The notes: generated from the sequence alone by a model not told the origin. Counted from the first letter of the stretch, positions 13,843 through 31,238 are shown. The stretch is DNA of 35,590 nucleotides from Thermoanaerobaculia bacterium (GCA_027069135.1 JALXFE010000594.1:1-35590); one strand, 5' to 3'. Numbers and translations: made by a program.

Positions 13843-14453
13843 ACCTCTTCCCCGACCGCCAATTCTTCGTAGAGCCAAGCCTGCGCCAGCCGCCAGTCTC
13901 GTTCTACCGTAGCGCGGGAGCAGCCGAGAATCTCCGCCGTCTCGACGTTTGTGAAGCCCCCGAAGAAGCGCAGCTCCACCACCTTGGCCTTGCGCAGGTC
14001 TACGGTTTCGAGGGCCGTCAGAGCATCATCGAGCTTCACGAGTTCCGCCGACGGCTCATCCGCCAACGTTGGCACCTGATCCAAGGCGAGAGCTTTCTTG
14101 CCGGAACCGCGTTTCAGGTAGCCCCGGTGGCGGGCGTGGTCCACCAGTACCCGACGCATGGCCTGAGCGGCCACGGCAAAGAAGTGGTGGCGGTCCTTCC
14201 AATCCCGGGATCCCCCTTTGGCAAAGCGGAGATAGGCCTCGTTGATGAGCTCCGTAGCCTGCAGGGTGTGATCCCAGCGCTCTTTTCCCAGGTAACTTTG
14301 GGCGAGGCGGCGCAACTCGCTGTAGACCTCCTTCAGTAGATTTTCCTCCGCCTCGGTCCGCCCGTCGCGCCAGGCGTTCAAGAGCTGTGTGACGGTTCCG
14401 GTTTCTGGCTCATGTATCGGATGTCGATTCCCGGCCCGATCGTGCTCGTCCAT
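13839..14453 (-). CDS. ECF-type RNA polymerase sigma factor
   Basis: This encodes 204 residues. ATG 14453 has GGGAG six bases upstream. Another in-frame ATG at 14459 has no spacing to that site. Region 2 covers ~40-105 (LRRLAQSYLGKERWDHTLQA, then AQAMRRVLVDHARHRGYLKR). Region 4 covers ~150-200, with a helix-turn-helix (TNVETAEILGCSRATVERDW). The HTLQATELINEAYLRF stretch is typical of the ECF subgroup found with Ser/Thr kinases in Acidobacteriota and Planctomycetota. No anti-sigma gene is adjacent. Coupling to the downstream kinase gene suggests phosphorylation-based control, as described for some ECF/kinase pairs. Targets are unknown, though the divergent secreted-protein gene is a natural candidate. 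Confidence 0.92.
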   Translation of the reverse strand: MDEHDRAGNRHPIHEPETGTVTQLLNAWRDGRTEAEENLLKEVYSELRRLAQSYLGKERWDHTLQATELINEAYLRFAKGGSRDWKDRHHFFAVAAQAMRRVLVDHARHRGYLKRGSGKKALALDQVPTLADEPSAELVKLDDALTALETVDLRKAKVVELRFFGGFTNVETAEILGCSRATVERDWRLAQAWLYEELAVGEEV

Positions 14454-14459
14454 TTCCAT

Positions 14460-14588
14460 CTCCCATCTGCGCGGCAACCCAGTATTTCAAACAACTCCAG
14501 GTGGGTGAGGGTATTCCCCGACAGATCTCGCTGTGCATTGGATGACGACAGATTCCATTCATGGACGTTCCCCGAGAGGATCCGAGCT
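14460..14588. promoter_or_regulatory. divergent intergenic region, sigma factor / secreted modular protein
   Basis: This 129-bp gap separates the divergent starts at 14453 and 14589, so it must hold promoters for both directions or upstream signals. No clear housekeeping -35/-10 pair stands out by eye. An ECF-type promoter recognised by the adjacent sigma factor is possible but not identified. Confidence 0.4.
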
Positions 14589-17500
14589 ATGCACCCGAGA
14601 CCATCCCTTTTCTTCTGCTTCCTTCTCTTCCTTGCTCTGATCGTGCCGCCGATTCAGGCGGACATCTGTACCTCGACTCTGATCGTGAACTCAGAGACGG
14701 TCTCAGTGCCTGCCGGAGAGCCAGCCTTTGTGGACTTGCTGGCCAACGACTCTCAGGACTGTGGAGCACCGCTGGCGGTGATCGTGGCCCCACAGAGCTG
14801 TCCGGGGACTGTGCAGGACTATGGGGATGGGTCCATCACGTATTTTCCGGCGGGCCAAGACGAGGCCTGTACCATTTCCTATCGCGTGACCAGCGAAGAC
14901 GGGGGTTCCGCCACCACGACCGTTCAAGTGGTGGTGGGAATGGGAACCACGAATCCCGGAGGTTCCTCTGTACCGCTGCTTCGCCTCGACGAGCTTGTCG
15001 ACCCGCATCGGTTTATTTCAGGAGGTTCGTCGGTCTACCTGGCTGGGTATTACCCGGGTATCCAGGCTCTGCTGGTCGCGGAGGCCGGCGTGGGCTTGCG
15101 CAACCAGCACGAAGAGCTCTTCGATGCGCTCGTAGCGAACCGAGTCAATCTCCTCCGGGCGGTGTTGACGATGGGAATGGCTCTTGAAACCCATGACTGG
15201 CTTCATCCCTATAACCGGTCTAACGACCCCTCAGACCCCAACACCTACCACTCTTCCCAAGAGGGGATAACCGGTGGACGGGTCTTCGATCTCTCCTCTT
15301 TCAATGAAGGTTTTTTCAACTATTGGAACCTGGTCGTCGAGGCCGCCGAGACGAGGGGACTGTATCTTCAGGTAGCGATTCTGGATGGCTTTCACGTACA
15401 TGAATTTGACAAGACAGATTCCCGTGGCGATGCTGTCGCTCCGCTGGAAAGGTTTGGGCGAATCTTCGACTATTTGCGGCCGACGAATCGTTCGAACTCA
15501 GTTGCTACCCAGCTTTCCACCGAGCGAGATTTCTACCAGCACCGGGTCACGGTCGAGACCCAAGAGAAATTTGTAGAAAGGGCGGTAGGAGATCTCTGCC
15601 ACCACGACGGTATCGTCTGGGAGTTGATCAACGAGCCGAATGATGTCCTGGCCAACGAGGTGCTCACCAACTGGCGCGACCCCGGGAAGACGTGGATACA
15701 GATCATCTACGAAGCTGTTCGCAGGGCTGAGGCCGAGGCAGGTTGTTCTGAACATCTGGTCATGCCCTTTCACTCTCCGGACCACCGAGATCTGGCGGGC
15801 CATTGGACACCAAGTGGCGGGGAAAGACCCGATGATCCTCTGCCGGGAGACGATCCCGGGCGAGATGATGAAGACCTCGAATACCAAGTCGTTTATCAGG
15901 CATTGGTAGGCGATTTCGAGGCGGTCTATACGATTCCCGAGTATGTCTCGGGAGCCGGCGGTGGCGCTAACCCCAACCATCTTCCGCTGATCGCCGACAA
16001 CGACTGCTGTGCGACGCCGGGAACACCCCTTCAACTACGCAAGAAAGCGTGGCTTTCTCTGTTGGCTGGGGCCAATCCCAGCATGCTGGTCTATGACGTA
16101 CCCGGGAGAACTATCGGGGCCCCGGAAATTCAGGATGGAATGAGGTGGGTCGGTTATACCCGGCAACTCGTCCTCGACCGAGGCATCAATCTTGTCGGCA
16201 TGGTGCCCCGGAGTGATTTGATCCATCAGAATGCCCAGGACATGGTCTGGCTCTCGGCGAGGGCCGGTGAAGAGTACATCGCTTATCTCTTCAACGGTGG
16301 GACCGTGAGCTTTATCGATGGCGTCTTGCCGGAGAGCTATCAAGCATGGTGGTTCGATCCCCGATCCGGTACAGAAGAAGCGATCCAACCTGTGCCAGCG
16401 AACGGGGTATTCACCAAGCCGGCGGGTAGCAACAGCGATTGGGTTCTCTACCTTCGAGGCGCTGACGGAGGGGGTACCAGCATTACCATTACGTCCCAGC
16501 CGCAGAGTCTTACGGTAGAGGTCGGCAAGACAGCCTTGTTCGCCGCCGGAGCCGCCGCCAATCCGCCTCAGCCTCTGACCTTCGTCTGGACTCTGGACGG
16601 TGGGCCGATCTCTGTGCTCGGCGTACGAGCGACGGTGACAAGCACGGATACGACGTCCCAGCTGACGATCTCAGATCTTCAACTGAGCGACGCTGGCAGC
16701 ATCCGCTGTAGGGCTTCCGGTGGCGGCGCCGCTGTCGATTCGGATGACGTGACGCTCACTGTTGTCGAGGTCCTGGAAACAGAGTCCACTGTAGGCGACC
16801 ACTTTGAGCTTGGCACCGCGGGGCCGGTCAGCGGCGATCCCCTGGCCGGGGCGGTGACCGATCTGGGGTTTCGTACCTGGCAGGCCAATATCGAGAGTGT
16901 GTTCGGCGGAAATGGGGCCAGCGGCTATGTGACCCATATCGCTTCCCAGACCACGATCCAGGGAGCCGGTGGAGTGGCCTTCGATCCCGATCTGATGGTG
17001 GGGCAGCCCCAGGTTCTGACCGTGGCCGCCGATTTTTCCGTGACCACCGGCAGCGGCTGGGGAGCCATCGGATTCGGCAGTACTCCCTTCAGTAGTTTTT
17101 GGGTCGATGGAGTTTGGGTGCTGCTGCAATCGAATGGAGATTGGACGGTATACGACGCCGGCCACGCTGGGGGTGCCCTGGTCCAGAGCTCGGCCCCGGT
17201 GGAGGGTTTTCTCGCCTCGGGTGAGAATGCCCTCAAGCTGCAATACGATCGGCTGGCGGGTACCCTGTCGGCGTGGGTCAACGAAGTGCCGTTAATTCTG
17301 AACCAGCCATTGCAGACTTCGGTGGTCCCCGACACGCGATTCGTCGGTTTTCGCATTTTCGCGACCAACGGCGGCGCCGAAGGCCGCATCCGCCTCGACG
17401 ATTTCTGGGCCATGGCGGGAGGGGATCCCGGTGAGCTCGACGATGCCGCCATCGTCGTTCAGAGCTTCCCTCCAGCGATGGGCTGCGGATCGACTGATAT

Positions 17501-20500
17501 GGCGGCGGTCACGGTCCAGAACCTCGGCAACACCGCCTGGAACGGCTTACCCATTGGGCGCGGCGGGGGTTACCTTTGGGACGTTCCCGACACCGACCCT
17601 TTTACTCTGATCCCCGTACAGGTCCGCCTCGACGAGGGGGAGACCATCTTTCCTCTGGAAACGAAGACCTTCATCTGGGATCTGACCGCTCCGGCAACCC
17701 CAAGCCCACCTCAGGGTTACAGGACCCAAGGCCGGATGCTCCGAGAGTCCTTTGGTGGATTCGGTTCTACGGCATTCGCGGATATCACCGTCGATTGCGA
17801 CAACCTGCCGCCGGAACCCGTGGATGACCCGAGGACGGTGGAGATGAATGGGACTTTCCGCTTCACGGGAGCTAGCCTCATCACCAACGACACCGATCCG
17901 AATGGTGATGCTCTCTTCTTCGTCGAGCTCGACACCGCGGGCACGGCCGGAACGGTGGATCCGGTCATCGGGGCTCCGATCCCGACCTTCGACTACCATG
18001 CCCCGCCGGGCGTCAGCGGTACCACGGACACGGTCCGATATCTCGTCGAAGACGAGCAAGGCGCCGGAGCCTGGGGCAACCTGGTGTTCACGATTCCTCT
18101 CAACCATCGGCCGGTGCCGGTGCCGGACACGCTTTCAACCCCGGCCAATATCTCCGTGACCTTCACCGCCGACTTTCTGACCGGCAACGACACGGACCAG
18201 GACGGTGACGGTATCGAATTATCCTCTCTGACCCTGACGGGGGTGACCGCCGGCCTCGATCCTCTGCCGGGGGTGACGCCGACGACCTACGAGTTCGTAC
18301 CGCCAACCGGGGGCATCCCGGGAGATTTCATCTTCAACTACTTCATCCAGGACGAACACGGTCTCGCCGCCTCCTTTGCCGGAACCCTTACGATCACGGT
18401 CGTCCAGCAGCCTCCCGTGCCGGCGGAGGATCGGATGTTGGTGCCTTTCGGTACCGCGTTCTTCCGAATCCCGGAGGACTATCTCCTGGCCAACGACACG
18501 GACCCCAACGGGGATCCACTATCTGTTACCAGCCTCGGGGATCCGGCCTTCGGCAGCTTCGGTTTCTCCCAATTCGGTCAAGGGTACGTCGCAGATCCGG
18601 AGTTTTGGAATGTCGGTTCGGACGCCTTCACGTACCAGGTCACGGACGGCTTCAACCCCTCCCAGGGTCTGGTCCGCCTCGAAGCGGAACCGGTCTGCGA
18701 CATCTACTTCGGTGACGGCGCCGAAAGTGGAGACCTCTCTACCTGGGACAGCATCATTTCCTTCGGCGGCGGTAGCATCTCTGCCGATGCAGCGGCGGCG
18801 TTTCAAGGCTCCTACGGTATCCGGATCGCCCCAGCCCAGGGTACGACCCAGCTCTATGTCCAAGACGATCTCCCGGTCGAGGAACGTCATTTCCGAGCTG
18901 GATTCCGGCTCAACCCGAACGACTTCGTCCTGACGGCGGGAGGCCGGCACAACCTCTTTACCGGATTCACTCCAGGCCAGAACGCTTTCATGCTACAGAT
19001 GGTGGCCGGAACCTCGGAGCCTCAGCTGAGCCTGGTGGTCAGCGAAGACAACAACGTCCAGCTCACGGCCCCTGCAGTGGAGCTGGGCAGCGAGTTCTGG
19101 CAGATCTGGCACCGTGTCTTCGTCGATTGGTGGGCGGCCTCGGCCCCGGGTGCCAACGACGGTGGAGCCCGCCTGTGGATCGACGGTCAGCTCGCTGCCG
19201 AGATCCTAGGCGCGGACAATGACGGGCGCATGGTCGGCAGCCTTCGGCTGGGCGCGGTCTGGGGAATCGACCCGGGGTTCTCCGGGACGTACTTCATCGA
19301 TAGCTACACCTCCTGCGATGGTCCCCGGAGCTCTCGAACGCTCAAGGCCGACGATTTCGAGAGTGGCACCTTGGCCGCCTGGGACGAACTTCGCCAGACC
19401 GGTACGGGCTCGGTCAGTGCTGCGGCCTCGGCAGCTCTGGCGGGTTCTTTCGGTCTGGAAGTGGCTCTGGGAACCGGTGCTTCGGAGCTCTACATCCTTG
19501 ACGAGAGCCTCGCCGCCCAGCGCCATCTCTGGGTCGAATTCTCTGTGGACACCAGCGCTCTCAGGCTGTCCAGCGGGTCTGTGTCCCTCTTGGAGGTGGA
19601 GGGCGGCGGTCCCGGCAATGCCGCCCAGCTGTCCCTGGTTTTCGCCGGCAACGGCGGCTTTCTCGACCTCGATGCGACCCAGGATGACGGCCTCCCGACC
19701 TTTGGAGGCAATCCCATCGACCTGCCGGCGGGGGAGCATCACATCCGCGTCGAGGTGGGCTCTGCCGCCAGTCCCGGAGAAGCCAGCGGCTTTGTCCATC
19801 TGTGGTTGGACGGCCAGCCCATGACCGGTCTGGAGGCTTTGCGCAACTCGACCCAGGCCGCCGAGAGGATCCGCCTCGGAGCGGTGAGCTCTATCCCCGC
19901 GTCCGCCTCCGGATTCCTCTACTTCGATGATTACCGTAGTTGGAGCGCGGCGGAGGACCTGCCGGTCCTGGCGGACGATTTCGAGGCCGGCTCCACGGCG
20001 GCCTGGGACGTGGTCATGGCGAGCGGAGGCGGGACGGTGAACGTTACCGGGGCGGCGGCGTTGGGCGGTACCCAGGGTCTCGCCATCGGTCTCGTCGAGG
20101 GGGCAGGCCAGGTTCATGTTCGCAAGGATCTGGCCCACCATCCCGCATCGCTGACTGCGGAGTTCCGATTCGATCCCAACTCCATCGCCATGAACAACGG
20201 CAGCGCCCATCCCATCTTCCAGGCCGGGGCCGCTTCCGGTGGCGCCATGGCCCTGTCCTTGGCACGCGAATTCGGCCTCTACCAGCTGCGTATCCAGGGC
20301 ATTCATGACGGCGGCCAATCCGTCCTCTCCAGCCTGACGGCGCTCACCGACGAGCCCCACACCCTGCGCCTCGAATTCCACAAGGCGACGGCCCCGGGCC
20401 TGTCCGACGGCAGCCTAGACCTGTGGGTGGACGGTACCAAGGTCCTTGGCCTGACCGGTCTCGACAACGCCACCAAAGCCCCCAGCACTCTGCGTCTCGG

Positions 20501-20567
20501 TGCCGTCTGGCTTCTAGACCCGGGCACGGTGGGAACTCTCTACTTCGACGACTTCCGGGCCTGGTAG
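14589..20567 (+). CDS. giant secreted modular glycoside-hydrolase-like protein
   Basis: This encodes 1992 residues. ATG 14589 is chosen because it opens a signal peptide (MHPRPSLFFCFLLFLALIVP) and has GAGAGG upstream. Order seen: a cadherin/Ig-like domain (~25-120), then a TIM-barrel-like region (~130-570) with VWELINEPND (Glu349, likely acid/base) and YTIPEYVSG (Glu451, possible nucleophile). Next come a WFDPRSGTEE segment like the putative collagen-binding domain that follows DUF4038-type hydrolases, an Ig domain (~631-727), and a LamG-like domain (~734-944). A CARDB-like domain, three cadherin-like repeats with NDTDPNGD (~1076-1367), and three ~200-residue LamG-like repeats follow, the last two opening with DDFESG/DDFEAG. 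It probably binds and cleaves an extracellular polysaccharide or glycoprotein. The substrate is unknown. Confidence 0.85.
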   Translation: MHPRPSLFFCFLLFLALIVPPIQADICTSTLIVNSETVSVPAGEPAFVDLLANDSQDCGAPLAVIVAPQSCPGTVQDYGDGSITYFPAGQDEACTISYRVTSEDGGSATTTVQVVVGMGTTNPGGSSVPLLRLDELVDPHRFISGGSSVYLAGYYPGIQALLVAEAGVGLRNQHEELFDALVANRVNLLRAVLTMGMALETHDWLHPYNRSNDPSDPNTYHSSQEGITGGRVFDLSSFNEGFFNYWNLVVEAAETRGLYLQVAILDGFHVHEFDKTDSRGDAVAPLERFGRIFDYLRPTNRSNSVATQLSTERDFYQHRVTVETQEKFVERAVGDLCHHDGIVWELINEPNDVLANEVLTNWRDPGKTWIQIIYEAVRRAEAEAGCSEHLVMPFHSPDHRDLAGHWTPSGGERPDDPLPGDDPGRDDEDLEYQVVYQALVGDFEAVYTIPEYVSGAGGGANPNHLPLIADNDCCATPGTPLQLRKKAWLSLLAGANPSMLVYDVPGRTIGAPEIQDGMRWVGYTRQLVLDRGINLVGMVPRSDLIHQNAQDMVWLSARAGEEYIAYLFNGGTVSFIDGVLPESYQAWWFDPRSGTEEAIQPVPANGVFTKPAGSNSDWVLYLRGADGGGTSITITSQPQSLTVEVGKTALFAAGAAANPPQPLTFVWTLDGGPISVLGVRATVTSTDTTSQLTISDLQLSDAGSIRCRASGGGAAVDSDDVTLTVVEVLETESTVGDHFELGTAGPVSGDPLAGAVTDLGFRTWQANIESVFGGNGASGYVTHIASQTTIQGAGGVAFDPDLMVGQPQVLTVAADFSVTTGSGWGAIGFGSTPFSSFWVDGVWVLLQSNGDWTVYDAGHAGGALVQSSAPVEGFLASGENALKLQYDRLAGTLSAWVNEVPLILNQPLQTSVVPDTRFVGFRIFATNGGAEGRIRLDDFWAMAGGDPGELDDAAIVVQSFPPAMGCGSTDMAAVTVQNLGNTAWNGLPIGRGGGYLWDVPDTDPFTLIPVQVRLDEGETIFPLETKTFIWDLTAPATPSPPQGYRTQGRMLRESFGGFGSTAFADITVDCDNLPPEPVDDPRTVEMNGTFRFTGASLITNDTDPNGDALFFVELDTAGTAGTVDPVIGAPIPTFDYHAPPGVSGTTDTVRYLVEDEQGAGAWGNLVFTIPLNHRPVPVPDTLSTPANISVTFTADFLTGNDTDQDGDGIELSSLTLTGVTAGLDPLPGVTPTTYEFVPPTGGIPGDFIFNYFIQDEHGLAASFAGTLTITVVQQPPVPAEDRMLVPFGTAFFRIPEDYLLANDTDPNGDPLSVTSLGDPAFGSFGFSQFGQGYVADPEFWNVGSDAFTYQVTDGFNPSQGLVRLEAEPVCDIYFGDGAESGDLSTWDSIISFGGGSISADAAAAFQGSYGIRIAPAQGTTQLYVQDDLPVEERHFRAGFRLNPNDFVLTAGGRHNLFTGFTPGQNAFMLQMVAGTSEPQLSLVVSEDNNVQLTAPAVELGSEFWQIWHRVFVDWWAASAPGANDGGARLWIDGQLAAEILGADNDGRMVGSLRLGAVWGIDPGFSGTYFIDSYTSCDGPRSSRTLKADDFESGTLAAWDELRQTGTGSVSAAASAALAGSFGLEVALGTGASELYILDESLAAQRHLWVEFSVDTSALRLSSGSVSLLEVEGGGPGNAAQLSLVFAGNGGFLDLDATQDDGLPTFGGNPIDLPAGEHHIRVEVGSAASPGEASGFVHLWLDGQPMTGLEALRNSTQAAERIRLGAVSSIPASASGFLYFDDYRSWSAAEDLPVLADDFEAGSTAAWDVVMASGGGTVNVTGAAALGGTQGLAIGLVEGAGQVHVRKDLAHHPASLTAEFRFDPNSIAMNNGSAHPIFQAGAASGGAMALSLAREFGLYQLRIQGIHDGGQSVLSSLTALTDEPHTLRLEFHKATAPGLSDGSLDLWVDGTKVLGLTGLDNATKAPSTLRLGAVWLLDPGTVGTLYFDDFRAW
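18705..20567 (+). repeat. three tandem ~200-codon LamG-like repeats
   Basis: The 3' third of the giant gene repeats a unit about 600 bp long at roughly 18705-19320, 19345-19945 and 19970-20567. Each unit opens with a variant of D-x-F/A-E-x-G-x-x-x-x-W-D and has an L-W-x-D-G strand. Each ends with R-L-G-A-V followed by an F-x-D-x-Y/F strand. The repeats are diverged, not recent copies. Confidence 0.75.
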
Positions 20568-20579
20568 GCGATCCGGGTT

Positions 20580-20618
20580 GCCCTCGGGCATTTTCCTTCA
20601 AGGAATGTCCCCGGGGGC
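20580..20618 (+). terminator. imperfect hairpin after the giant hydrolase gene
   Basis: Arms at 20580-20598 and 20600-20618 pair over about 19 positions with two mismatches and two G-T pairs, 13 nt after the stop at 20567. The core is CCTT/AAGG plus GCCCTCGGG/CCCGGGGGC. It lacks a T run, so termination is only probable. It sits between two same-strand genes. Confidence 0.4.
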
Positions 20619-20667
20619 TCCACCCCCACTGGCTGCTGGATCTCTTCTAATGAAAAGGACGATAGAT

Positions 20668-23600
20668 ATGAAATGTGACTTGGATTTCTCGAATAGAATC
20701 CCCAAAAACCATCTTGGAAGAGATCGCAGGCCCCGGCTTCTCGCCGTTTCCGGGTTGCCTCTCGTGCCGGTGCCGTGCCGCTCCCAACCTCTGAAGAGAC
20801 GAGGTCTGGCCGTTTTTCCGGCGCTCGTACTCGCTCTCGTCGTTGCGCCTTCTCTCGCCGGCCAGGGTTCTTCAGGAACAGAAGGAGATGATCCGTCCCT
20901 GGTCGGTACCGCCGCCGCTCAGGCCCGGGGAACTTCTGTCGACTCCGCGTTTCATTTCGGAAAAGTCGACAATATCAATCTCTTCAATGGAAACCTTTCG
21001 ATCGAGATTCCTTTGGGGCAAACCTATTCCGCCGGTGCCGGGCTCTCCTACGGCCTCAATTTGGCCTACAACTCAAATATCTGGGACTACGAAGAGCATT
21101 GCCAATGGAAATCTTCAGCAACTTCCGGTCCGGATTTCGGTCTCAAGATAAATCTTGCCCATGAGGTACCCGCTGCAGCTTCCAATGCCGGCCTCGGATG
21201 GATGTTGGAGCTCGGAAGGATCCTCATTCCGGGAAATCTTTATAATTGGGATTCTACCGGAAGAGGTCCCGACAACCTCACTTACGTCGCTCCAGACGGC
21301 AGTGAGCATGCCTTTTTTTCGACCCTTCATGACGGAGAGGTGGCCGGTAACGATCTTGCCTACTCGACCGACGGATCCTACCTGCGGCTCCGTTCGACTC
21401 CTGCCGGATGCATGCGCCCACGCAACGGAATCGATAGCACTCTGGAATTCGAGGGTTGTACTCTCCTCGAAGTGGATTTTCCGGATGGATCTTCTCAAAG
21501 GTTTGCGAACTTTGGGATCTCGGACCCTCTCCAACCGGAGCTCGCGGATTGGCGAATGATCCGGATGGAGGATGCCTTCGGGAACGGAGTGACTGCCACC
21601 TACGAGGACGGCCCTCTTCCTTTCACCGAGCTATGGAAGTTGACCGACGACCTTGGCCGGACCCAAGAGATTGATCTCTTCGGCCCGCAGGTCGATGACA
21701 CCGGAAATCTGTATGCCACAGCTCCCCAGGTCGAGCAAGGACTCCGCGTCCACGAGGTACGGCTCACGGGATTTGGTGGGAGCACCTTGGTCTACCGCTT
21801 CGACTACGTCCTCGACTTCGTCGAAAGGCATAAGGCTGGCGGCAATGAGGGCCTTGAGTACACCTGCAACGGATCTCCACAAACCACCCACAGCCTGGAA
21901 GCCTTTCTTCTGAGCAAGTTGACCGCCGTCGAGGGATTCACCGAAATCTATGCCTACGAGATGTACTACTACGACCAGACCGGACCGCCTTCTGCAGGGC
22001 CAGCGCCCAATTTCTCTGGAACAAAGGCCGGTGCTCTCGCCCGTCTTCGACTGCCCACGGGGGGAGGATATGCCTACACCTATGGGAAGTATCGACATGG
22101 TTATGAGATTGACCACCCGAACATAGCTGCGGAATTCAAGATCAAGAGGATCGATTCGATCGGAGTGGTGCGCAAACACATCCTTAGCAAGGTGGGTTCG
22201 GCACCTCCCTTGATCAGCGATGTGGAAGGTACCTGGGCCTACGAACCGGAGCCGAGCCCTGCTCTGGAGGCTCCCTGGGACGATGCTACGAACTACGATA
22301 CGACAGATCCGGATCGTCCTACAGGGCTGGACCCCTGCTTTCTCAAGACGACCGTCACGGATCCGGTGGGAAACATTACTGAGAATTTCTTCAATACGGC
22401 CCGCATCGGTTTTACCCGAGAGTTCGGTTTGCCCTATACGGTTTGCCATCCGGATACCCGAGTCTTTTTCGATTTTGACGGAGACGGCATCCGAGACAAT
22501 GCTCAGGATCCTCTGACCTTCAGACCTATCACCGGCGCGACGGGTCCCGATGCGGAGTTCTATCCGACGATCGGCGCCCCTCCGACCCGCCTTCTCTCGA
22601 GCCGAGTCTTGGGTCCTGCTCCCTCGGGGGGCGGAGCTCCTCCAGTTCTCCGGGAGACCTATATCCACTATGAATTCGATGACCTTTCTCCGACCTTTGC
22701 GAGCCCGGGGTTTCTTGCTCATAGCTCGAACTCTCGGGTTCGGGATCAAGAAACTTGTTTTTTCGACGATCCCGGGAGTGTACCTCCGAGTATTTGCAGC
22801 GCCCACCATTGGAAGAGGGCCACAAGAAGCGACTTTGACGGCTTTGGCAGCTATCGGACGACGATCACGAATTCGAGCTTCGGAGGCAACGACCGGGTCC
22901 AAACGATCCGCAACTCGAATCCCGTGCCGGCCAACGCCGGCTATCCGTGGGGTGCTGGCTATACCGAAGAGGAGAACCTCCTCGCCGGAGACCTTGCTAC
23001 GGGACCTTGGATTCTGGGCCTGTCCACCTGGACGGAAGTCGACCAGGCGCCGAATACCCCCGGGGAGGTGGCCGTCACCTTGACCTGCTTCGATCCGGCG
23101 ACGGGTTTTCTCCAGGGCCGACGAAGCCTCGCCAGCAACGGTGGCCCGGGGTCGGCGCCACCGGCACCCCAGGCCAACGATCTGCTGGTTCGCTTTTCTC
23201 CAACGGTCTCCGGTGCTGGCAACCTCGGCTTCGTGAGCTCAGAGGAGTATTTCGGTGGCGATGGCCAGAACCTCCCAATAGGGACCGGGTGTGAAGCCCC
23301 GGGCGCTCTATCTCCGGAATACCGGGTCGAGGCGACCTACGCTTCGGGGGCTCTGGAGCGAGCCTGGTTTTCTCGAGGAGGCTCAGAGTTCTTGGAGATC
23401 GGGGATTTCTCGATCGATTCGGGCACTGGCTTCACTGCCAACTCCTTTGACGCAGCGGATGTGGAGACACAGTTTCGATACGACGCTCTGGGGCGGTTGG
23501 TCGAGACCTGCCGGCCGGGGGTGAGTGTTGCTGTCAACGAGTTTACTTTCCCGAACTCGGCTTCTTCGATCCTGGAATCGACTCTCGATACCCAGATCTT

Positions 23601-26346
23601 CGAAGTGCCCGCCGCGGGAGGGTGCTCCCCGGGAGTCAGGACGACCCAAGAGCGGAGCATTTTCGACGGCCACGGTCGGCGAATACGAGAAGAGCAAAGG
23701 CGGCCTCAACGGACAGGCCCGGGCTCTTACACCTCGACTCTGGCCGAGCATAGCTTCGAGTTCGATGCCCTGGACCGGACGGTCAAGACCGGTCTCTGGA
23801 CAGGCCCGGGAGGTGGTTTGACTCCGGCAGCCACGGAAGTCTTGAGCTTCGACCCTTTCAGCCGCCCTCTGCAGGTCCAACAGCCAGACGGATCCCTCCT
23901 TACGATGAGCTATCTGGGGGAGCGCGTGGAGGAGAGTGTCATTGGGATCGAGACTGATTCCGGCGAACAGGACAGCGTTACCCGGAGCACCAGGGACGGG
24001 CTCGGAAGACTTTTTCTCCTCGAGAACCGGAATTCGTCGGGCTTGGTGCTCCTGAGCACCTCTTACCGCCACGACGAGGCCGGCCGCCTAGCTCAGGTCT
24101 GTGTCCGGGATACGGATGACAATCCCGCCGGCTGCGGTGGGCAGAAGCGAACCTTCACCTACGACGGCCGAGGGCTGCTCGTCTCCGAAACCCATCCGGA
24201 GATCGGAGGTGGCGGAAATGGAACCGATACCTATGCCTACGATTCCCGCGGCAATCTCTTAGGCAAGAACACCAGCGATCCAGCCTTCAGCCTTAACTAC
24301 CTCTATGACCCGGCGGCGCGAGTGACGCAAATCTCGGCAGCGGCGACCGGCTCGTTGCTCACGGAGTATTTCTATGGCCGCGCCAACAGTGGACCTCTTG
24401 GCTCGCTCGATCGCCGCGCCGGGAAGTTGGTCGGCACCAAGCAGCACAACCGGATCCCCGGCCCGGTCGGTGCGGGGCTGTCACCGGATATCGCGGTCAC
24501 CGAGTCCTACTCCTTCGTGGACCCGGCAGGCCGGCTCTCGGCCTACTCGGTTCGCTCCGGCTCCGGCCCGAGCTTTACCAGCTCCATCCTGGGATACGAC
24601 GCCCTGGATAGCGTTCTATCTCTCTCGTACCCCCAATGCGATCACTTTCCCTGTTCCGGCGCGGGCTCCAGCCGAGTGGTGAGCTATCAGACCCGGGATG
24701 GGGCCGTGACGGCGGTTCTCCAAAACGGGGTTTCCTTTGCTGATGGGCTGGACTATCACCTGGACGGAACTCTTCGACGGGTGGGGCATGGCAATGGAGT
24801 CACGGACCTCCTGGACCAAGACACCTTGGGCTGGCGCCTGGGGCATATTCGGGCACAGGGCATTGCCGGTGGGGATTGGGACTATGGACCCTACACCTAC
24901 GACAGTGCGGGCAATGTCACCAGTATCAGTCCCGGTCAGCAATACCGCTACGATCTTTTGAATCGGTTGACCTCGGGGCAGGTCCAGGTCCTCGATGGAA
25001 GCATCACGCAACAGGCGATCCAGACCGCCTCCTATGATGATTTCGGCAACCTTTCCTCGTTGGTCGCGACCGGTACCCTCCAAGGCCCGAGTCCCGGAAC
25101 CATTGCCCACAGCACGGCGACAAATCGCCTCGCGGGCATTTCTTACGATGCCAACGGCAACGCCCTTTCGGGAACCCTCGGTAGCGAGAGTGTCAGTTAC
25201 TCCTGGGATCTGCTCAACCGGATGACATCGCTCCAGGCAGGAACCGTAGGAAAAGCCTACCTCTACACCGCCGCCGGGGAACGGCTTGCCACCCTGAACC
25301 CCGCCCTGGGGGACGCCGCCTACACCCCTCGTTCGGCAACCAACCAGGTGCTGCGTCGTTTCAAAAAACTCGGAACTCTCCCCTGGGCTTGGGACGAAGA
25401 CTACATCTACGCCGGTAACCGCCAACTCGGTGCCGTCACCGCCGGAGGGGAACACTACTTCCACCTCGATCACCTGGGGAGCGTCCGAAGGATCACCGAC
25501 TCCGCAGCGCAGCTGGTCGAATCCCGGGACCTTTACCCCTTCGGCGGCTACATTCTCACCCCCAACGCAGACGCCGAAGAATTCCACTTCGCCGGTCACG
25601 AACGCGACGCCAACGGCGCCAACATCGTCGCCGATCTCGACTACATGCATGCACGGTACTACACCCCGTACCTGGGACGGTTCCTGAGTGTGGATCCGGA
25701 CCCGGGGCGGGATGGGTGGAATTTGTATGGGTATGTGGGGAATAATCCGATCAACAAGACGGACCCCACCGGTGAATTCGGAGTCTTTGGGGCACTAGCA
25801 GGAGCAGTCATCGATTTTGGAGTTCAAACTTTAGTGCAGGGGAAATCTCTTTCAGAAGTCAACTACGTGTCGGTTGGTGTCAGCGCGCTTTCCGGTGCCT
25901 CCGGTGTAGGTCTGGGGCGAGTCGTGGCAAGAAATGTAGCGAAGGTAGGTGCTCGGATAGCCCTGAACGCAGCAGGGAGCGCTGCGATAGGAGCGACGGC
26001 CTCCGTGGTGAACACGGTAGGGACGAACGCGGTGGAAGGAGAAGCTTTGACAGAGGGTTTGAGGACGGAGAATGTTGTCAAGGCTGCGGTAATAAGCGCC
26101 CTAGCTGGCGCTATAGGGTCAATTGCAGAAGAAGCTGCTTCGGCTGTCACTACAGCAGCAGCAAGGAATGCTAACGTGAGTGACGTGATCGATCCAAACA
26201 TCCCGTTTTATGCGACCGGTAACAGGGCGTCGAATATTCAGTCCTTCGGAACAGGTGCTGGGAATGCAGTTGCAACTCCATTATCAAATTCTGGCGTCTT
26301 GATCGAAACCATGATAGATGGTGAGTTACAGCCCGAGCCCAGGTAG
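20668..26346 (+). CDS. very large secreted RHS-repeat protein with variable C-terminal tip
   Basis: This encodes 1892 residues from ATG 20668, which has AGGA 8 nt upstream; an ATG at 20650 lacks such a site. A hydrophobic export segment (AVFPALVLALVVAPSLAG) lies at ~49-66, unusually far from the start. Next is the N-terminal beta-rich RHS region (NLFNGNLSIEIPLG) with a calcium-type loop FDFDGDGIRDN (~600). Many YD repeats (YDALGRLVETCRPG, YDLLNRLTSGQ) follow to ~1530. The core end is HYFHLDHLGSVRRITD, ARYYTPYLGRFLSVD and YGYVGNNPINKTDPTG (~1590-1702). The last ~190 residues are a Gly/Ala/Val-rich helical linker and a short unknown tip (NIPFYATGNRASNIQSF). By analogy with RHS toxins, the shell delivers this tip. 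Toxin activity is not recognisable. Confidence 0.9.
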   Translation: MKCDLDFSNRIPKNHLGRDRRPRLLAVSGLPLVPVPCRSQPLKRRGLAVFPALVLALVVAPSLAGQGSSGTEGDDPSLVGTAAAQARGTSVDSAFHFGKVDNINLFNGNLSIEIPLGQTYSAGAGLSYGLNLAYNSNIWDYEEHCQWKSSATSGPDFGLKINLAHEVPAAASNAGLGWMLELGRILIPGNLYNWDSTGRGPDNLTYVAPDGSEHAFFSTLHDGEVAGNDLAYSTDGSYLRLRSTPAGCMRPRNGIDSTLEFEGCTLLEVDFPDGSSQRFANFGISDPLQPELADWRMIRMEDAFGNGVTATYEDGPLPFTELWKLTDDLGRTQEIDLFGPQVDDTGNLYATAPQVEQGLRVHEVRLTGFGGSTLVYRFDYVLDFVERHKAGGNEGLEYTCNGSPQTTHSLEAFLLSKLTAVEGFTEIYAYEMYYYDQTGPPSAGPAPNFSGTKAGALARLRLPTGGGYAYTYGKYRHGYEIDHPNIAAEFKIKRIDSIGVVRKHILSKVGSAPPLISDVEGTWAYEPEPSPALEAPWDDATNYDTTDPDRPTGLDPCFLKTTVTDPVGNITENFFNTARIGFTREFGLPYTVCHPDTRVFFDFDGDGIRDNAQDPLTFRPITGATGPDAEFYPTIGAPPTRLLSSRVLGPAPSGGGAPPVLRETYIHYEFDDLSPTFASPGFLAHSSNSRVRDQETCFFDDPGSVPPSICSAHHWKRATRSDFDGFGSYRTTITNSSFGGNDRVQTIRNSNPVPANAGYPWGAGYTEEENLLAGDLATGPWILGLSTWTEVDQAPNTPGEVAVTLTCFDPATGFLQGRRSLASNGGPGSAPPAPQANDLLVRFSPTVSGAGNLGFVSSEEYFGGDGQNLPIGTGCEAPGALSPEYRVEATYASGALERAWFSRGGSEFLEIGDFSIDSGTGFTANSFDAADVETQFRYDALGRLVETCRPGVSVAVNEFTFPNSASSILESTLDTQIFEVPAAGGCSPGVRTTQERSIFDGHGRRIREEQRRPQRTGPGSYTSTLAEHSFEFDALDRTVKTGLWTGPGGGLTPAATEVLSFDPFSRPLQVQQPDGSLLTMSYLGERVEESVIGIETDSGEQDSVTRSTRDGLGRLFLLENRNSSGLVLLSTSYRHDEAGRLAQVCVRDTDDNPAGCGGQKRTFTYDGRGLLVSETHPEIGGGGNGTDTYAYDSRGNLLGKNTSDPAFSLNYLYDPAARVTQISAAATGSLLTEYFYGRANSGPLGSLDRRAGKLVGTKQHNRIPGPVGAGLSPDIAVTESYSFVDPAGRLSAYSVRSGSGPSFTSSILGYDALDSVLSLSYPQCDHFPCSGAGSSRVVSYQTRDGAVTAVLQNGVSFADGLDYHLDGTLRRVGHGNGVTDLLDQDTLGWRLGHIRAQGIAGGDWDYGPYTYDSAGNVTSISPGQQYRYDLLNRLTSGQVQVLDGSITQQAIQTASYDDFGNLSSLVATGTLQGPSPGTIAHSTATNRLAGISYDANGNALSGTLGSESVSYSWDLLNRMTSLQAGTVGKAYLYTAAGERLATLNPALGDAAYTPRSATNQVLRRFKKLGTLPWAWDEDYIYAGNRQLGAVTAGGEHYFHLDHLGSVRRITDSAAQLVESRDLYPFGGYILTPNADAEEFHFAGHERDANGANIVADLDYMHARYYTPYLGRFLSVDPDPGRDGWNLYGYVGNNPINKTDPTGEFGVFGALAGAVIDFGVQTLVQGKSLSEVNYVSVGVSALSGASGVGLGRVVARNVAKVGARIALNAAGSAAIGATASVVNTVGTNAVEGEALTEGLRTENVVKAAVISALAGAIGSIAEEAASAVTTAAARNANVSDVIDPNIPFYATGNRASNIQSFGTGAGNAVATPLSNSGVLIETMIDGELQPEPR

Positions 26347-26351
26347 TAATC

Positions 26352-26633
26352 ATGGGCAGAATTCTAGAATGGATCAATTCCTCATGGGCAATCAAGACCC
26401 TCATGCGCTCTCGCAGCGGAAGGTTTATCTATTTTCTCGTCTTTGGGGTAGTTATATGGGGCTGTGCAGGGGGGACTTTATTCCTCGCTAGTTGGTATTT
26501 TACTCGAAGACGGGGTATTTCACTCGTTCCTCTTGTTGCATTCCTAGGTCTAGGTGTTCCGATGACACTTTACGATGGTTGGCCAGTTATCGTTTCAAAA
26601 TCTTCCCAGAGGGCAGAGGAAGTTTCGCGATAA
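26352..26633 (+). CDS. small membrane protein, possible immunity factor for the RHS tip
   Basis: This encodes 93 residues with ATG 26352, five bases after the RHS stop. Two hydrophobic segments are visible (FIYFLVFGVVIWGCAGGTLF and SLVPLVAFLGLGVPMTL) with a basic loop between them (YFTRRRGIS). Base composition is clearly lower in GC than the chromosome around it, like the RHS tip before it, so tip and this gene probably arrived together. Position directly after an RHS tip suggests an immunity protein, and a membrane location would suit a toxin acting on or crossing the inner membrane. The family is not recognised and no strong ribosome site is seen. Confidence 0.55.
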   Translation: MGRILEWINSSWAIKTLMRSRSGRFIYFLVFGVVIWGCAGGTLFLASWYFTRRRGISLVPLVAFLGLGVPMTLYDGWPVIVSKSSQRAEEVSR

Positions 26634-26681
26634 TGCCGAAGAATGGTCAACTGAATTCCAGGAACCCGAAGAGCGAACTCC

Positions 26682-26942
26682 CTAAGAAACAGTAGATATC
26701 ATGGGCTGTTGTGTAAGCTCCTGAACTCCCCAAACTCCGCCCGTCCGGTAGGCCTTGTCTCGCAAACGGCCCAGCGTTGCGGCCCCGAGCAAGCGATTGG
26801 GAAAGGCTTCACCCCATTCGCTGAAGTCCAGATTGCTGGTGACCACCGTCGCTGCCCGCTCGTAGCGTTCACCGATCAGATCGTGGAGGTCCTCGTCCTG
26901 AGGAGAGCGCAGCGGCTTGAGACTGTAGTCGTCCAAGATCAT
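26682..26942 (-). pseudogene. istB: IstB ATPase, C-terminal third only
   Basis: About 66 residues match the C-terminal part of IstB, the AAA+ helper ATPase of IS21 transposition: ILDDYSLKPLRS (Walker B region), LHDLIGERYERAATVVTSNL, FPNRLLGAATLGRLRDKAYR. The Walker A half (roughly 170 residues) is absent. The remaining frame runs on for ~20 unrelated residues (TGGVWGVQ...) into flanking DNA. The upstream end joins directly to istA sequence, so an internal deletion removed the end of istA and the start of istB. Confidence 0.85.
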
Positions 26943-28159
26943 CGGGTGTCTGGCGCAGGAAGGCCTGGGCCTCCGGTGGCAGGTGGTCGGACACAGTCGC
27001 CGATCGCCCGGGCCGCTGGGACCGCACGTGGCTGGCCACCAGCTCTTGGTCGTGAAAGATCTGGATCATGGTGGCTGCCGCGCGTACCCACAGCCGCGTG
27101 CCGATCCAGACGAAGGGCACTGAGTAGAAGCGCTTATCCAATCGCATATGACCGTCACGATGCACCAGCAGGCGCTTCCATTCGGCGGGTTCGAAGGCGC
27201 GCTCCGGAAGGGCTCTCAGGAGCGCCTTCTCGGTCTCGGCGAAGCGGGTAACAGGACGCTCCCGGGTCGTGCCGTGGAGGCGCTGTCCGGCCTCTTTCAG
27301 GACCCAGGCCTCCAACTGCCGGTTGGTATCCGCCAGGTCTTGAAACTCGCGACCGGGGAAGAAGGCTCGTTTGACGTATTTGACTCCCGCCTCCACCCTG
27401 CCTTTCTTCTGGGGATCTCGCGGCGGGCACGGGGCCAACTGAAAATCGTAGGCGCTCAGCGAACTCTGCGTAGGAGCGCTGGACCTCCGGCTCCCGAAAA
27501 CAAGCCCGGGTGATCGCGCACTTGGGATTGTCCGGCATAACTTTACGAGGCACCCCTCCAAAGAAGCGGAAGGCGCGCTGATGGCATCCCAGCCAGATCG
27601 GCACCTTCTGGTCCCAGACGATCTCGGCGTACTGATGCCGACTCCAGCACAGGGTCATCACGAAGAACCAGGTCGTGCTCAGCTCCCCGGTGACAGGGTC
27701 CGCCAGCTTCGACCCGCTGCCGAAGTCCACCTGTGCAGCCTCCCCGGGCTCAAAATGAAGGCGGATCGTGCGCCCGACCGGGCCCGGATCGAGCTTGCGA
27801 GCAAACCGACGCACCGCGGAGTAGCTGCCGGCGAAACCGCAGCCCCGGCACAGCAGTCGATAGATCGTGGTGCCCTGGATTCCTTCGCGATGCCAGGCCG
27901 CCACCTGGTCGCGATAGGGCTCGAGGGATGACGGTGTCGAGGGGGCCGGAGCCCTGGCAAGAACCTCCGCCAGCTCAGCGTCGTCGGGAAGAATCCGCTC
28001 GGAATCCAGCCAGCCGTGGGCCAGCGCAATGACGCGCACTTGCTGGGCCTTGTCTCTTCCCATCAGCCGAGCTCGGCTGATGGCGCGGTCGGATTGTCCC
28101 TGGCGCATCCGCACCAAGACTTGTCGATACTCGTACGCCTCGAATCTCCTGTTCGCCAT
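26943..28159 (-). pseudogene. istA: IstA transposase, frameshifted and 3'-deleted
   Basis: ATG 28159 has AAGGAGGTG just upstream. The N-terminal helix-turn-helix region (FEAYEYRQVLVRMRQGQSDR) and the catalytic core are clear: AAQVDFGSGSKL (first Asp) and VMPDNPKCAIT (second Asp). Near 27450 the frame changes. The protein continues in another frame as AYDFQLAPCPPRDPQKKGRV, then EAGVKYVK carrying the third acidic residue, then RLDKRFYSVPFVWIGTRLWV. One extra base in ...GAGCGCC-TACGAT... explains the shift. The coding sequence then breaks off at EAQAFLRQTPD, where istB sequence begins (~26943). Inactive as it stands. Confidence 0.88.
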
Positions 28160-28217
28160 GGCACCTCCTTGGTGGGGAGGGTACCGGTCGATGAAATCCG
28201 AGATCCCGACCCGGCCA

Positions 28218-28263
28218 GGTGGCCGGATTAGGGCGATCCTCTGGTGGCCGGATTGAGGTGATC
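28218..28263 (+). repeat. IS21 sub-terminal repeats
   Basis: Two 21-bp copies, GGTGGCCGGATT followed by AGGGCGATC (28218-28238) or GAGGTGATC (28243-28263), differ at three positions and lie 25 bp apart. A weaker third copy may sit at the terminus. Multiple end repeats are typical transposase-binding sites of IS21-type elements. Confidence 0.7.
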
Positions 28264-28507
28264 ACGCTTTGGCCAGATAGTGGCGGTCAGTGCCAGGGAA
28301 AAAGGGATCTAAAGCACGCCGTTCTGTCTGATTCAGGGGACGACCCTGGGGTCGGTGGAGCTTGCGCTGTCCTTCCACCCAGGACACAGCTCGCGGGATC
28401 GCCGGTCGAAGCTCTTCGAGGGTCGGTTCACTGCGGAGGCTTCGGGGAAGAGCCAGAGCGAGGAGAGCTGCCAGGGCTCCCAAGACGATGAGGATAGGGC
28501 GTCGCAT
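28262..28507 (-). pseudogene. truncated duplicate of the HELVH metallopeptidase gene
   Basis: From ATG 28507 this frame repeats the first ~70 residues of the protein encoded at 10269-10907 (signal peptide MRRPILIVLG onward, through TERRALDPFFP), with only a few changes. It then runs into the IS21 terminus (GTDRHYLAKA) and stops. The zinc-site half is missing, so the product would be a secreted stub. The join coincides with the IS end at 28295/28296, consistent with insertion of the element into a second gene copy and loss of the remainder. Confidence 0.88.
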
Positions 28508-28564
28508 CTCGCGGCTGAGGATACCAGCCTCGAAGAGAATCGACATTGAACCCGGCGGTTGCAG
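28296..28564 (+). repeat. 269-bp repeat, copy B (partner 10696-10964)
   Basis: This is the direct-orientation partner of 10696-10964: six mismatches, no gaps. Its left edge is the IS21 terminus. Its right edge falls after the shared GGCGGTTGCAG, where the sequences diverge abruptly. Confidence 0.93.
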
Positions 28565-28729
28565 GAGGACCTGAACGTGAAGCCGTGGCTGAGTGGAGCG
28601 CCAGGCAAACCAAGGTTCGAAACCCTGGGGGGCTTGGGCTCTATCGTATGAGGTTCCTGATCAGTGTTGGGGGCCTTGAATGAATTGGTTGAAGTACTCA
28701 GAGCCGCGGGTCCGACACTACTTTGGGCA

Positions 28730-28762
28730 AACGTATCAGGAACCACCAACCCCTGATACGTT
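28730..28762. repeat. 11-bp perfect inverted repeat
   Basis: AACGTATCAGG (28730-28740) and CCTGATACGTT (28752-28762) are exact inverse complements around an 11-nt loop. With AT-rich outer ends and no T run it suits a protein-binding operator, a recombinase site or an RNA hairpin. Nothing in the sequence decides between them. Confidence 0.6.
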
Positions 28763-28907
28763 CTCCCGCCCGATTCCGCGTACAAGGATAGAGGCAAGGC
28801 TCAAGCGGGATCCATTTGATATCTCCTCCATCTGGTCTGCCACGCGCCCGGGAACTCCTGGGCCTTGCCTTTTCCTCGCGGGCTTCTCTCCCTCCTCTGG
28901 TAGGTAG

Positions 28908-28953
28908 CCCAGGGCCGGATCGGCGATCCTCCTCTCGCTGATTCGGCCCTGGG
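28908..28953. promoter_or_regulatory. 19-bp stem-loop in the leader of the beta-helix gene
   Basis: Arms 28908-28926 and 28935-28953 pair along all 19 positions (17 Watson-Crick, two G-T) with an 8-nt pyrimidine-rich loop. The stem ends 53 nt before the ATG at 29007. No T run follows on either strand, so it could be a 5'-leader structure, an attenuator or a REP-like palindrome. Confidence 0.6.
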
Positions 28954-29006
28954 ATGGTGGTGGGTTGGGCTAGGATTGACGACAACAGATTCGGAGGCTC
29001 TTGAAT

Positions 29007-31238
29007 ATGCGCATTCCTTCTCGTTTGCCTTCCCGGATAGCCTCTTTGGTGCTGACCGCTATCTCTCCCTTAGGCCTTTCCGCGGCAACTTTTGAGGTTT
29101 CAGATTTCGCCGACAGCGGGCCGGGCACCCTTCGCCAGGCGATCCTCGACGCCAACGCCGCGGCGGGGCTCGACACGATCACGTTCAATCTAGGGGGAAG
29201 CGTACCGTTTCTCCTGCAGCCGACATCGGTGCTACCGGCAATCACCGAACAGGTGACGATCGACGGCAGCTCGCAACCGGGATTCTCGGGGGCACCCATC
29301 GTCGTTTTGGATGGAAGCCTTGCCGGAGCTGGTGTCGACGGTTTGCAGGTGATCTCCCGGCTTCCGGTCACCGTCCGTGCCTTGGTGGTGAGCCGCTTTG
29401 CAGGTCACGGCATCCATTTCGAGGGGACGTCCCTGTCGTCCAGTCTGGGTCATGTCGTCGAAGGAAGCTATGTGGGGACAGATGCTACAGGAGCCTTGGC
29501 TCGGCCGAACGGTGGCGACGGAATCCGGGTGATCGACTCCTCGGAAGTACGGATCGGCGGGCCCAATGCTGGAGAAGGGAATGTGATCTCCGGCAATGGC
29601 GGGGCGGGAGTTCGATTCGAAGGAGCCTACAACGGCTCTACGAGCAATATCATTCAGGGGAATCTCATCGGCGTGGACGTAACCGGAACTCAGGCTCTGG
29701 GCAATGGGGACCACAACCTCGTCCTCTTCGCCACGGACGATAGCTTGGTCGGCGGCGGCTCGGTCGGTGAAAGGAACATTCTGTCCGGTGCCGCCGGAGG
29801 CTATGGTTTCTTTGATTCTCTCTCCATCGGTAACTCGGTGGTTGGCAATTATATCGGTACCGATATTTCCGGGATGGCCTCGATTCCCAACGCTGCGGGC
29901 GGGGCCTTGATACAAGGGTCCTCTTCTCGGGTTGAAGGAAATCTGATCTCAGGAAACTCGCTGGCAAACACTGCCGGCGTGGATTGCGATGGAAGCGGAG
30001 GGTTGTGGAAGGGTAATTGGATCGGTGTTGACGCTTCCGGAGTGGCGGCCTTACCCAACGCTGTCGGGTTGAGGTTCTCGACCAGTGGTTCCGTCACGAT
30101 AGGAGATCATCTCGATCCCGTCGCGGTCAATATCATCTCCGGGAACCTGGGGGCCGGAGTCGTCTTGGCGGGAGATGCGGGGTCCTCACCTAGCTTTATC
30201 TTCTGCCACATCGGCTTGGATGCGTCCGGACAGCCCTTGGGGAATGGCGGCAGTGGAGTCTTGGTCTCGGGCGGAAGGATCCGCGAGATGCAGCAATGCA
30301 TCATCGCAGCTAATGGTGCCCATGGCATCGAACTCCGGGGGATATCCTCCAGCTTCAGCCTTATCCATTCAAGCTACATTGGGACGGACGCGGCGGGCTC
30401 CTCCGGTCTTGGGAATCAGCTCCATGGAGTCTTCATCAACGATGGGGCCAACGCCGTTCTCGGACGCCCCGGCGAGGGCAACGTGATTTCCGGAAACGGT
30501 ATGTCCGGGGCCGGGGACGGTGTGCATATCGAAGGTTTGAGCGCGACGGGAAATCTCGTCCAGGGAAATCTCATAGGGATCCGACCGGATGGCACCAGCC
30601 CATTGCCCAATGCAGGCCATGGAGTCCTTCTCGGTGGAGGGGCAAGCGGGAATCAAGTGGGTGGAATCGTCGCCGGTGAGGCGAATGCCATCAGCTTTCA
30701 TTCGGGAAGCGGGATCTTCGTGGATTCCGGCGACGCGAATCTTCTGAGCGGCAATTCCCTTTCCGACAATGTCGGCTTGGGTATCGATCTAGCCCCGCCG
30801 GGGATCAATCCCAACGACCCGGACGACAGCGACGGCGGTGCAAATCTTGGGCAGAACTACCCCTTGCTCACGTCCGTATTGGTGGACGCCATCACCACGG
30901 TGGTGGGAGGAACCCTCGACGGCGTCCCTTCCACAGGGCACCTGGTAGAGATTTTTGTGAGCCCCAGCTGCGATCCGCTCGGGAATGGAGAGGGAGGGGC
31001 CTATCTCGGCACGGTCGCGGTGACGACGGATAGCTCCGGCGATGCCAGCTTCGCCGGCCTCCTCCCGCTGACCGCCGCCGGCCTTTTCGCCACGGCCACG
31101 GCCACGGACCCTCTGGGCAATACTTCTGAGTTCTCTCCCTGTGTCGAGGTCATCCCTGGCTCTTGCGGCTTCTGCATTCTCCTGGACGGTTTCGAAACCG
31201 GCGACACCTCCCGCTGGTCCGCGACGGTGGGGTTGTAG
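29007..31238 (+). CDS. secreted right-handed beta-helix protein
   Basis: This encodes 743 residues. ATG 29007 is chosen because GGAGG lies 9 nt upstream; a TTG at 29001 is too close to it. After a signal peptide (SLVLTAISPLGLSAA) comes the common opener FEVSDFADSGPGTLRQAILD. Many short parallel beta-helix turns follow, with recurring GEGNVISGNGGAGV, NIIQGNLIGVD and GTDATGA phrases, to ~600. A beta-sandwich-like stretch precedes the end, CGFCILLDGFETGDTSRWSA, within nine residues of the last codon. Proteins of this type bind or cleave polysaccharide or act as cell-surface adhesins. No catalytic residues can be named. The stop is only 5 bp from the convergent RND stop. Confidence 0.87.
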   Translation: MRIPSRLPSRIASLVLTAISPLGLSAATFEVSDFADSGPGTLRQAILDANAAAGLDTITFNLGGSVPFLLQPTSVLPAITEQVTIDGSSQPGFSGAPIVVLDGSLAGAGVDGLQVISRLPVTVRALVVSRFAGHGIHFEGTSLSSSLGHVVEGSYVGTDATGALARPNGGDGIRVIDSSEVRIGGPNAGEGNVISGNGGAGVRFEGAYNGSTSNIIQGNLIGVDVTGTQALGNGDHNLVLFATDDSLVGGGSVGERNILSGAAGGYGFFDSLSIGNSVVGNYIGTDISGMASIPNAAGGALIQGSSSRVEGNLISGNSLANTAGVDCDGSGGLWKGNWIGVDASGVAALPNAVGLRFSTSGSVTIGDHLDPVAVNIISGNLGAGVVLAGDAGSSPSFIFCHIGLDASGQPLGNGGSGVLVSGGRIREMQQCIIAANGAHGIELRGISSSFSLIHSSYIGTDAAGSSGLGNQLHGVFINDGANAVLGRPGEGNVISGNGMSGAGDGVHIEGLSATGNLVQGNLIGIRPDGTSPLPNAGHGVLLGGGASGNQVGGIVAGEANAISFHSGSGIFVDSGDANLLSGNSLSDNVGLGIDLAPPGINPNDPDDSDGGANLGQNYPLLTSVLVDAITTVVGGTLDGVPSTGHLVEIFVSPSCDPLGNGEGGAYLGTVAVTTDSSGDASFAGLLPLTAAGLFATATATDPLGNTSEFSPCVEVIPGSCGFCILLDGFETGDTSRWSATVGL

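Follow-up and report, generated by a model that had tools for sequence, protein, structure and literature searches.

Unrelated exported proteins of Acidobacteriota end in a short shared tail, a candidate C-terminal targeting tag

The stretch of DNA analysed here (the window, 35,590 nucleotides; GCA_027069135.1, JALXFE010000594.1:1-35590) comes from a Thermoanaerobaculia bacterium and codes for a giant exported hydrolase and an exported right-handed beta-helix protein (Table 1), which share the motif D-x-F-E-x-G-x-x-x-x-W. A preliminary description of the window had placed three copies of the motif at the opening of the hydrolase repeats and a fourth one at the extreme C-terminus of the beta-helix protein, and translation returned all four with the same sequences and coordinates. 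The hydrolase contains collagen-binding-like, Ig and cadherin-like domains in addition to three C-terminal jelly-roll repeats (Pfam searches and translation); the repeats, each opened by the motif, make up its last ~620 residues, and repeat 2 matches PF14099 (Polysacc_lyase) with an E-value of 6.9e-07 over residues 1649-1814. The beta-helix protein ends with ...CILLDGFETGDTSRWSATVGL and the stop codon. Its motif copy is LLDGFETGDTSRWSA, with the D at position 31185, and the stop comes six residues past the motif W (...WSATVGL), with no following domain. An AlphaFold model of this C-terminus with the tail, computed without an alignment, had a pLDDT (the model's per-residue confidence) of 41.6 and was not used.

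Table 1. Motif-bearing proteins of the window and their parts.
Feature	Position in the window	Strand	Basis and remarks
Giant exported hydrolase	14589..20567	+	Translation, Pfam; open frame 14412-20567, likely start ~14589, the Met before the signal peptide
Jelly-roll repeat 1 of the hydrolase	18702..19316	+	Opened by the degenerate motif GDGAESGDLSTW (GDGAESGDLSTWD at ~18711)
Jelly-roll repeat 2 of the hydrolase	19341..19961	+	Opened by DDFESGTLAAW (DDFESGTLAAWDE, DDFESGTLAAWD), 19350-19382
Jelly-roll repeat 3 of the hydrolase	19965..20564 or 20570	+	Opened by DDFEAGSTAAW (DDFEAGSTAAWDV, DDFEAGSTAAWD), 19974-20006
Exported right-handed beta-helix protein carrying the tail	29007..31238	+	Pfam Beta_helix, E 9.7e-08; signal-peptide-like N-terminus by script
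Stand-alone C-terminal tail ILLDGFETGDTSRWSATVGL of the beta-helix protein	31176..31235	+	Translation; stop codon 31236-31238

When the whole 7.17-Mb genome was searched at the DNA level, the pattern D-x-F-E-x-G-x4-W gave 72 matches, as compared to 2 for the reversed pattern. All 72 matches were read in frame, and those within 35 residues of the stop codon were regarded as C-terminal. This was the case for 57 copies, which have 12-33 residues from the D to the stop (exactly 16 residues in 37 of them), while only 4.3 would be expected if matches were distributed uniformly along their open frames. The other 15 comprise six copies that open jelly-roll repeats (two of the three in the window, three on contig C492 and one on C149), five that come directly after a signal peptide, three in RHS-like proteins and one that is internal. 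A genome-wide search of this kind had been proposed in the preliminary description; copies are concentrated at C-termini both in this genome and in contigs filed under Acidobacteriota or a close metagenome-assembled genome (MAG) label, where 89 of the 95 copies with a stop in view lie at most 35 residues from it. Neither a lack of C-terminal excess nor a motif always followed by a complete domain was observed. The copies behind a signal peptide (L064, L077, L089, L096 and L097, to which L200 is to be added) lie at the mature N-terminus (...PEGLAPIFLDGFESGDYFGWS...) and belong to one paralogous family; in the RHS-like proteins (L084, L091 and L099) the motif (VFTDGFETGDTRCWAG...) is internal and lies 165-345 residues from the end.

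The logo of the tails corresponds to the consensus [IL]-F-[AS]-D-G-F-E-S-G-D-T-S-A-W-S-x-x-x-P-stop (...IFADGFESGDTSAWSATVP), with a length of ~15-19 residues. In this consensus the search pattern itself imposes D, F, E, G and W, but strong preferences are also seen at positions that it leaves free, namely the I/L and F in front, the inner G, S and D, the S that follows W and the P at the end. Little conservation is present upstream of tail position -3. The identity of the tails is higher than that of the linkers, a difference inflated by the six residues that the pattern fixes; the exact pattern misses degenerate tails, and the genomes are drafts. The serine of DGFES is encoded by TCN in 27 tails and by AGY in 24, and no pair among the 57 tail cores (45 nt) reaches 95% DNA identity. 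The use of both serine codon classes indicates that the tail is conserved at the protein level and was not recently copied as DNA. Homologous carriers in different genera keep their tails. No Pfam model matches the tails; in NCBIfam the only model touching them is NTTRR-F1 (NF033675), which is not a C-terminal tail family and matched 2 of 44 tails far below significance (best E 0.058). A tblastn search of the tail against plasmids gave no match, searching the PDB sequences with a profile of the tail gave chance matches only, and nothing relevant on the motif strings was found in openly licensed papers.

The proteins that carry the tail are, for the most part, exported. A signal-peptide-like start was found in 48 of 54 complete carriers and in 39 of 121 neighbouring open reading frames (ORFs), using a simple script and not SignalP (Fisher p 9e-13; since related sequences are not independent, p-values are only indicative), and the signal of one carrier is twin-arginine-like (L114, MTEITRRGFVAG). 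Carriers include M36 fungalysins, S8 subtilases, M12 reprolysins, FG-GAP/ASPIC proteins, choice-of-anchor B and J proteins, GH114, glucose/sorbosone dehydrogenase-like propellers and beta-helices. The claim that the motif is common to unrelated secreted proteins was therefore borne out well beyond the window. Outside the tail the carriers are unrelated, and their ends are many unrelated folds. No membrane helix comes after the motif, a helix-like stretch in the last 45 residues was found in a single carrier (1/54), where it precedes the motif, and a basic C-terminal cluster is equally rare (1/54). The closest NCBIfam models of the M36 carriers are named T9SS-dependent (T9SS, type IX secretion system), myxosortase-dependent and rhombosortase-dependent. 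In fact, the tail sits where M36 and choice-of-anchor relatives bear T9SS, MYXO-CTERM or GlyGly-CTERM signals. Among the tail-free ASPIC proteins of the same genome, about 5 of 10 readable N-termini are those of lipoproteins (small numbers, inspected partly by eye), while a relaxed lipobox test was passed by 1 of the 48 tail carriers with a signal peptide. ASPIC proteins also occur without the tail in close relatives.

Tails were counted over 396 genomes of the phylum and over 148 of the class. The trait is close to on/off, with a bimodal distribution of tens to ~170 copies per genome versus near zero. Within Acidobacteriota, high counts are found in the majority of a single order and in some members of a sibling family; outside the order, nearly all genomes have 0-3 copies. 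Between 45 and 167 copies each were found in the window's own genome (G000) and in G386, G015, G152, G238, G318, G326, G334, G368 and G380. The switch is visible within families: in family f3, every genome of genus g3 has 0-2 copies and g4 has 97, and in family f10, genera g29, g245, g247 and g250 have tens of copies and g14, g15 and g24 have 0-1. Several genomes of family f88 have low counts, with some copies being domain starts in the genomes sampled. Two genomes of the same genus (f5, g6) had 98 and 2 copies by a second pattern (G480, which is 81% complete, and G246, respectively). The loci L155, L176, L179, L186 and L240 belong to JAHZIX01, 'Deltaproteobacteria P_S1_bin.14', whose tail counts are the same as those of G386, from the window's genus; because of this match its public assignment to Deltaproteobacteria seems mistaken.

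The motif has two contexts, because the hydrolase copies cap complete jelly-roll domains and the tails stand alone. In the hydrolase repeats the motif is followed by a complete domain of ~200 residues, whereas none follows it in the tails. The AlphaFold model of repeat 3 (mean pLDDT 94.9) is a beta sandwich, with glucuronan lyase 2zzj and Cip1 3zyp among the closest folds of known structure, and in which the motif forms an N-terminal cap made of a short bridge and a helical turn. The earlier view of the motif as the first strand of a domain is thus roughly right for the hydrolase, where it is a cap and not a regular strand, and the view that it acts alone is right for its placement in the beta-helix protein. 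Groups other than Acidobacteriota show mainly the first context: 16 of their 20 motif copies have at least 150 residues after the motif, and several are jelly-roll domains that align with the repeats of the window, such as an Anaerolineae copy (IFADGFESGNLSAWT...YFFDAFESRR). Of the four near a stop, two lie in short frames that are probably spurious, and the other two are in single-match genomes and probably come from stray contigs; the 'Kangiella' and 'Deltaproteobacteria CSMAG_220' MAGs have one apparent tail each, which probably lies on a stray contig. Some proteins secreted by Xanthomonadaceae may carry similar hFx[DN]GFE stretches at their very C-terminus. The hydrolase gene and the RHS-repeat gene directly downstream of it (window 14412-26346) have related genes at two other places in the genome, L086 (G000:C492) and L110 (G000:C149), so that the two apparently form a paralogous two-gene module.

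Taken together, the anatomy of the tail, its carriers and its distribution suggest, with a probability that we put at about two in three, that the tail is a C-terminal targeting tag by which exported proteins are sent across the outer membrane or retained at the surface. The carriers would cross the inner membrane by the Sec pathway, or in some cases by Tat, by means of their N-terminal signal peptides, and would fold in the periplasm leaving the tail exposed. A putative periplasmic or outer-membrane receptor may then read the conserved F..D.FE.G....W residues and pass the carrier across the outer membrane, hold it at the surface, or both. The recognition by a receptor, the export or anchoring at the outer membrane and whether the tail is cleaved are what we infer from these data. 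As to the stand-alone sorting or anchoring tag suggested in the preliminary description, the placement on C-termini with no following domain and the restriction to one lineage held; the sorting or anchoring role fits the anatomy and is the best inference from the sequences.

Several results weigh against this interpretation. The small non-C-terminal set includes the five copies that come after signal peptides, all in one paralogous family, and the three internal ones in RHS-like proteins. No tested processing enzyme or secretion system (T9SS sorting domain, exosortase, secretin clusters) tracks the tail, and the co-occurring dedicated machinery that had been anticipated was not found among them. 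The T9SS sorting domain TIGR04183 was absent or represented by a single weak match (2 of 23 genomes), never in a tail; exosortase was present in each of the 10 tail-rich genomes tested and in the majority of the tail-poor genomes as well. The distribution does not support T9SS or exosortase as the cognate system. Likewise, secretin clusters, whose gene identities were read from order and sequence and not from family searches, do not separate tail-rich from tail-free genomes. The best secretin matches are in operons whose ORFs read as pilMNOPQ, which gave no such match in genus g3 and are present in the tail-free f10 genera, and a second cluster, with a secretin like that of the type II secretion system (T2SS) and GspE/GspF-like genes, is found in tail-rich genomes and g3 alike. 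The T2SS secretin GspD had been considered as a marker that separates the two sets and was dropped, since the operons were read as pilMNOPQ. In the own genome the second T2SS-like secretin of relatives was unmatched, possibly because of an assembly gap. Genus g3 (G089, G108 and G126) gave no match for exosortase or for the pilMNOPQ-type secretin and has essentially no tails. Finally, no neighbour gene recurs convincingly beside the tail genes. None of the tested systems or neighbours explains the on/off pattern.

The resemblance of the tail to the jelly-roll domain admits another explanation, namely docking by fold complementation, in which the tail, as a detached jelly-roll cap, would insert into a cap-less receptor jelly-roll and the carriers would gather on a scaffold in a dockerin-like manner. 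The domain begins with ~15 residues (IFADGFESGNLSAWT) that are near-identical to the tail, these residues form the cap in the model, and in a profile search the domain was commoner in tail-rich genomes. However, the jelly-roll profile found nothing in G318 and G424, both of which are tail-rich, so that this family is not a general receptor, and no cap-less receptor was identified; docking of this kind is unlikely, though it fares best among the alternatives. The cap formed by the motif in the jelly-roll domain, together with the benefit that stabilised ends bring to mature exoproteins, would also be consistent with a tail that clasps the last beta domain of its own carrier, conferring stability or protease resistance with no partner. 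We consider such a clasp slightly less likely again, because a single fixed sequence would probably not suit the many unrelated folds in which carriers end; moreover, the sequence upstream of position -3 is not conserved and the ASPIC proteins of close relatives manage without the tail. Short terminal hydrophobic or aromatic peptides can act as recognition signals for proteases, and the tail might accordingly serve quality control, turnover or processing by a periplasmic protease, but this is improbable, considering that carriers are secreted enzymes of types expected to persist and that the tail is placed like the sorting signals of their relatives. As for a remnant of a truncated jelly-roll domain or a DNA repeat copied to gene ends, the likeness to the first residues of the domain is outweighed by the nearly equal use of TCN and AGY serine codons, by the lack of any two cores at 95% DNA identity and by the tails kept in homologous carriers of different genera, and we rejected it on codon usage as very improbable.

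Returning to the targeting tag, a more specific and more tentative proposal, to which we give somewhat less than even odds, is that an undescribed outer-membrane sorting pathway of Acidobacteriota reads this helix-free tag of 15-19 residues on up to ~170 proteins per genome and replaces T9SS, rhombosortase, myxosortase and exosortase. The Gram-negative C-terminal tags with which we compared it either bear a helix (PEP-, GlyGly- and MYXO-CTERM) or are a folded domain (T9SS); a bare tag of ~15-19 residues on dozens to ~170 proteins per genome would be, if true, another way to solve the problem. It would label a large part of the secretome in a group that is known mainly through uncultured genomes, and it may bear on the choice of substrates by outer-membrane secretion systems, which is an open question for T2SS. 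The on/off pattern between close relatives makes a search for the reader directly doable.

Among the known systems compared, the PF14099-like concanavalin-like jelly-roll (2zzj, 3zyp), present three times in the hydrolase of the window, shares its opening residues with the tail and differs from it by the domain that follows. The tripartite signals (LPXTG, PEP-CTERM, GlyGly-CTERM and MYXO-CTERM) are, like the tail, short C-terminal regions that recur on numerous unrelated signal-peptide proteins within a genome, follow an all-or-nothing pattern among lineages and occur on M36 and choice-of-anchor proteins. It was an anatomy resembling that of the tail that led to the discovery of PEP-CTERM with exosortase (PMC1569441) and of GlyGly-CTERM with rhombosortase (PMC3237569). 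Unlike these signals, and unlike MYXO-CTERM with myxosortase (PMC11980579), the tail lacks both a transmembrane helix and a basic cluster behind the motif, is matched by no NCBIfam model and has no cognate enzyme among the systems tested. In CTERM systems a membrane-embedded enzyme acts beside the helix (PMC11980579), and the tail, having no membrane helix, is unlikely to work like PEP-CTERM or GlyGly-CTERM. The C-terminal domain (CTD) of T9SS substrates (TIGR04183; PMC10202324) shares with the tail the Sec-exported carriers, a signal with no membrane helix and the homologous M36 peptidases, although it is a folded domain (the TIGR04183 model has 72 positions) and the tail forms no domain. If it is recognised once the carrier has been exported, the tail would resemble the T9SS CTD more than the CTERM signals.

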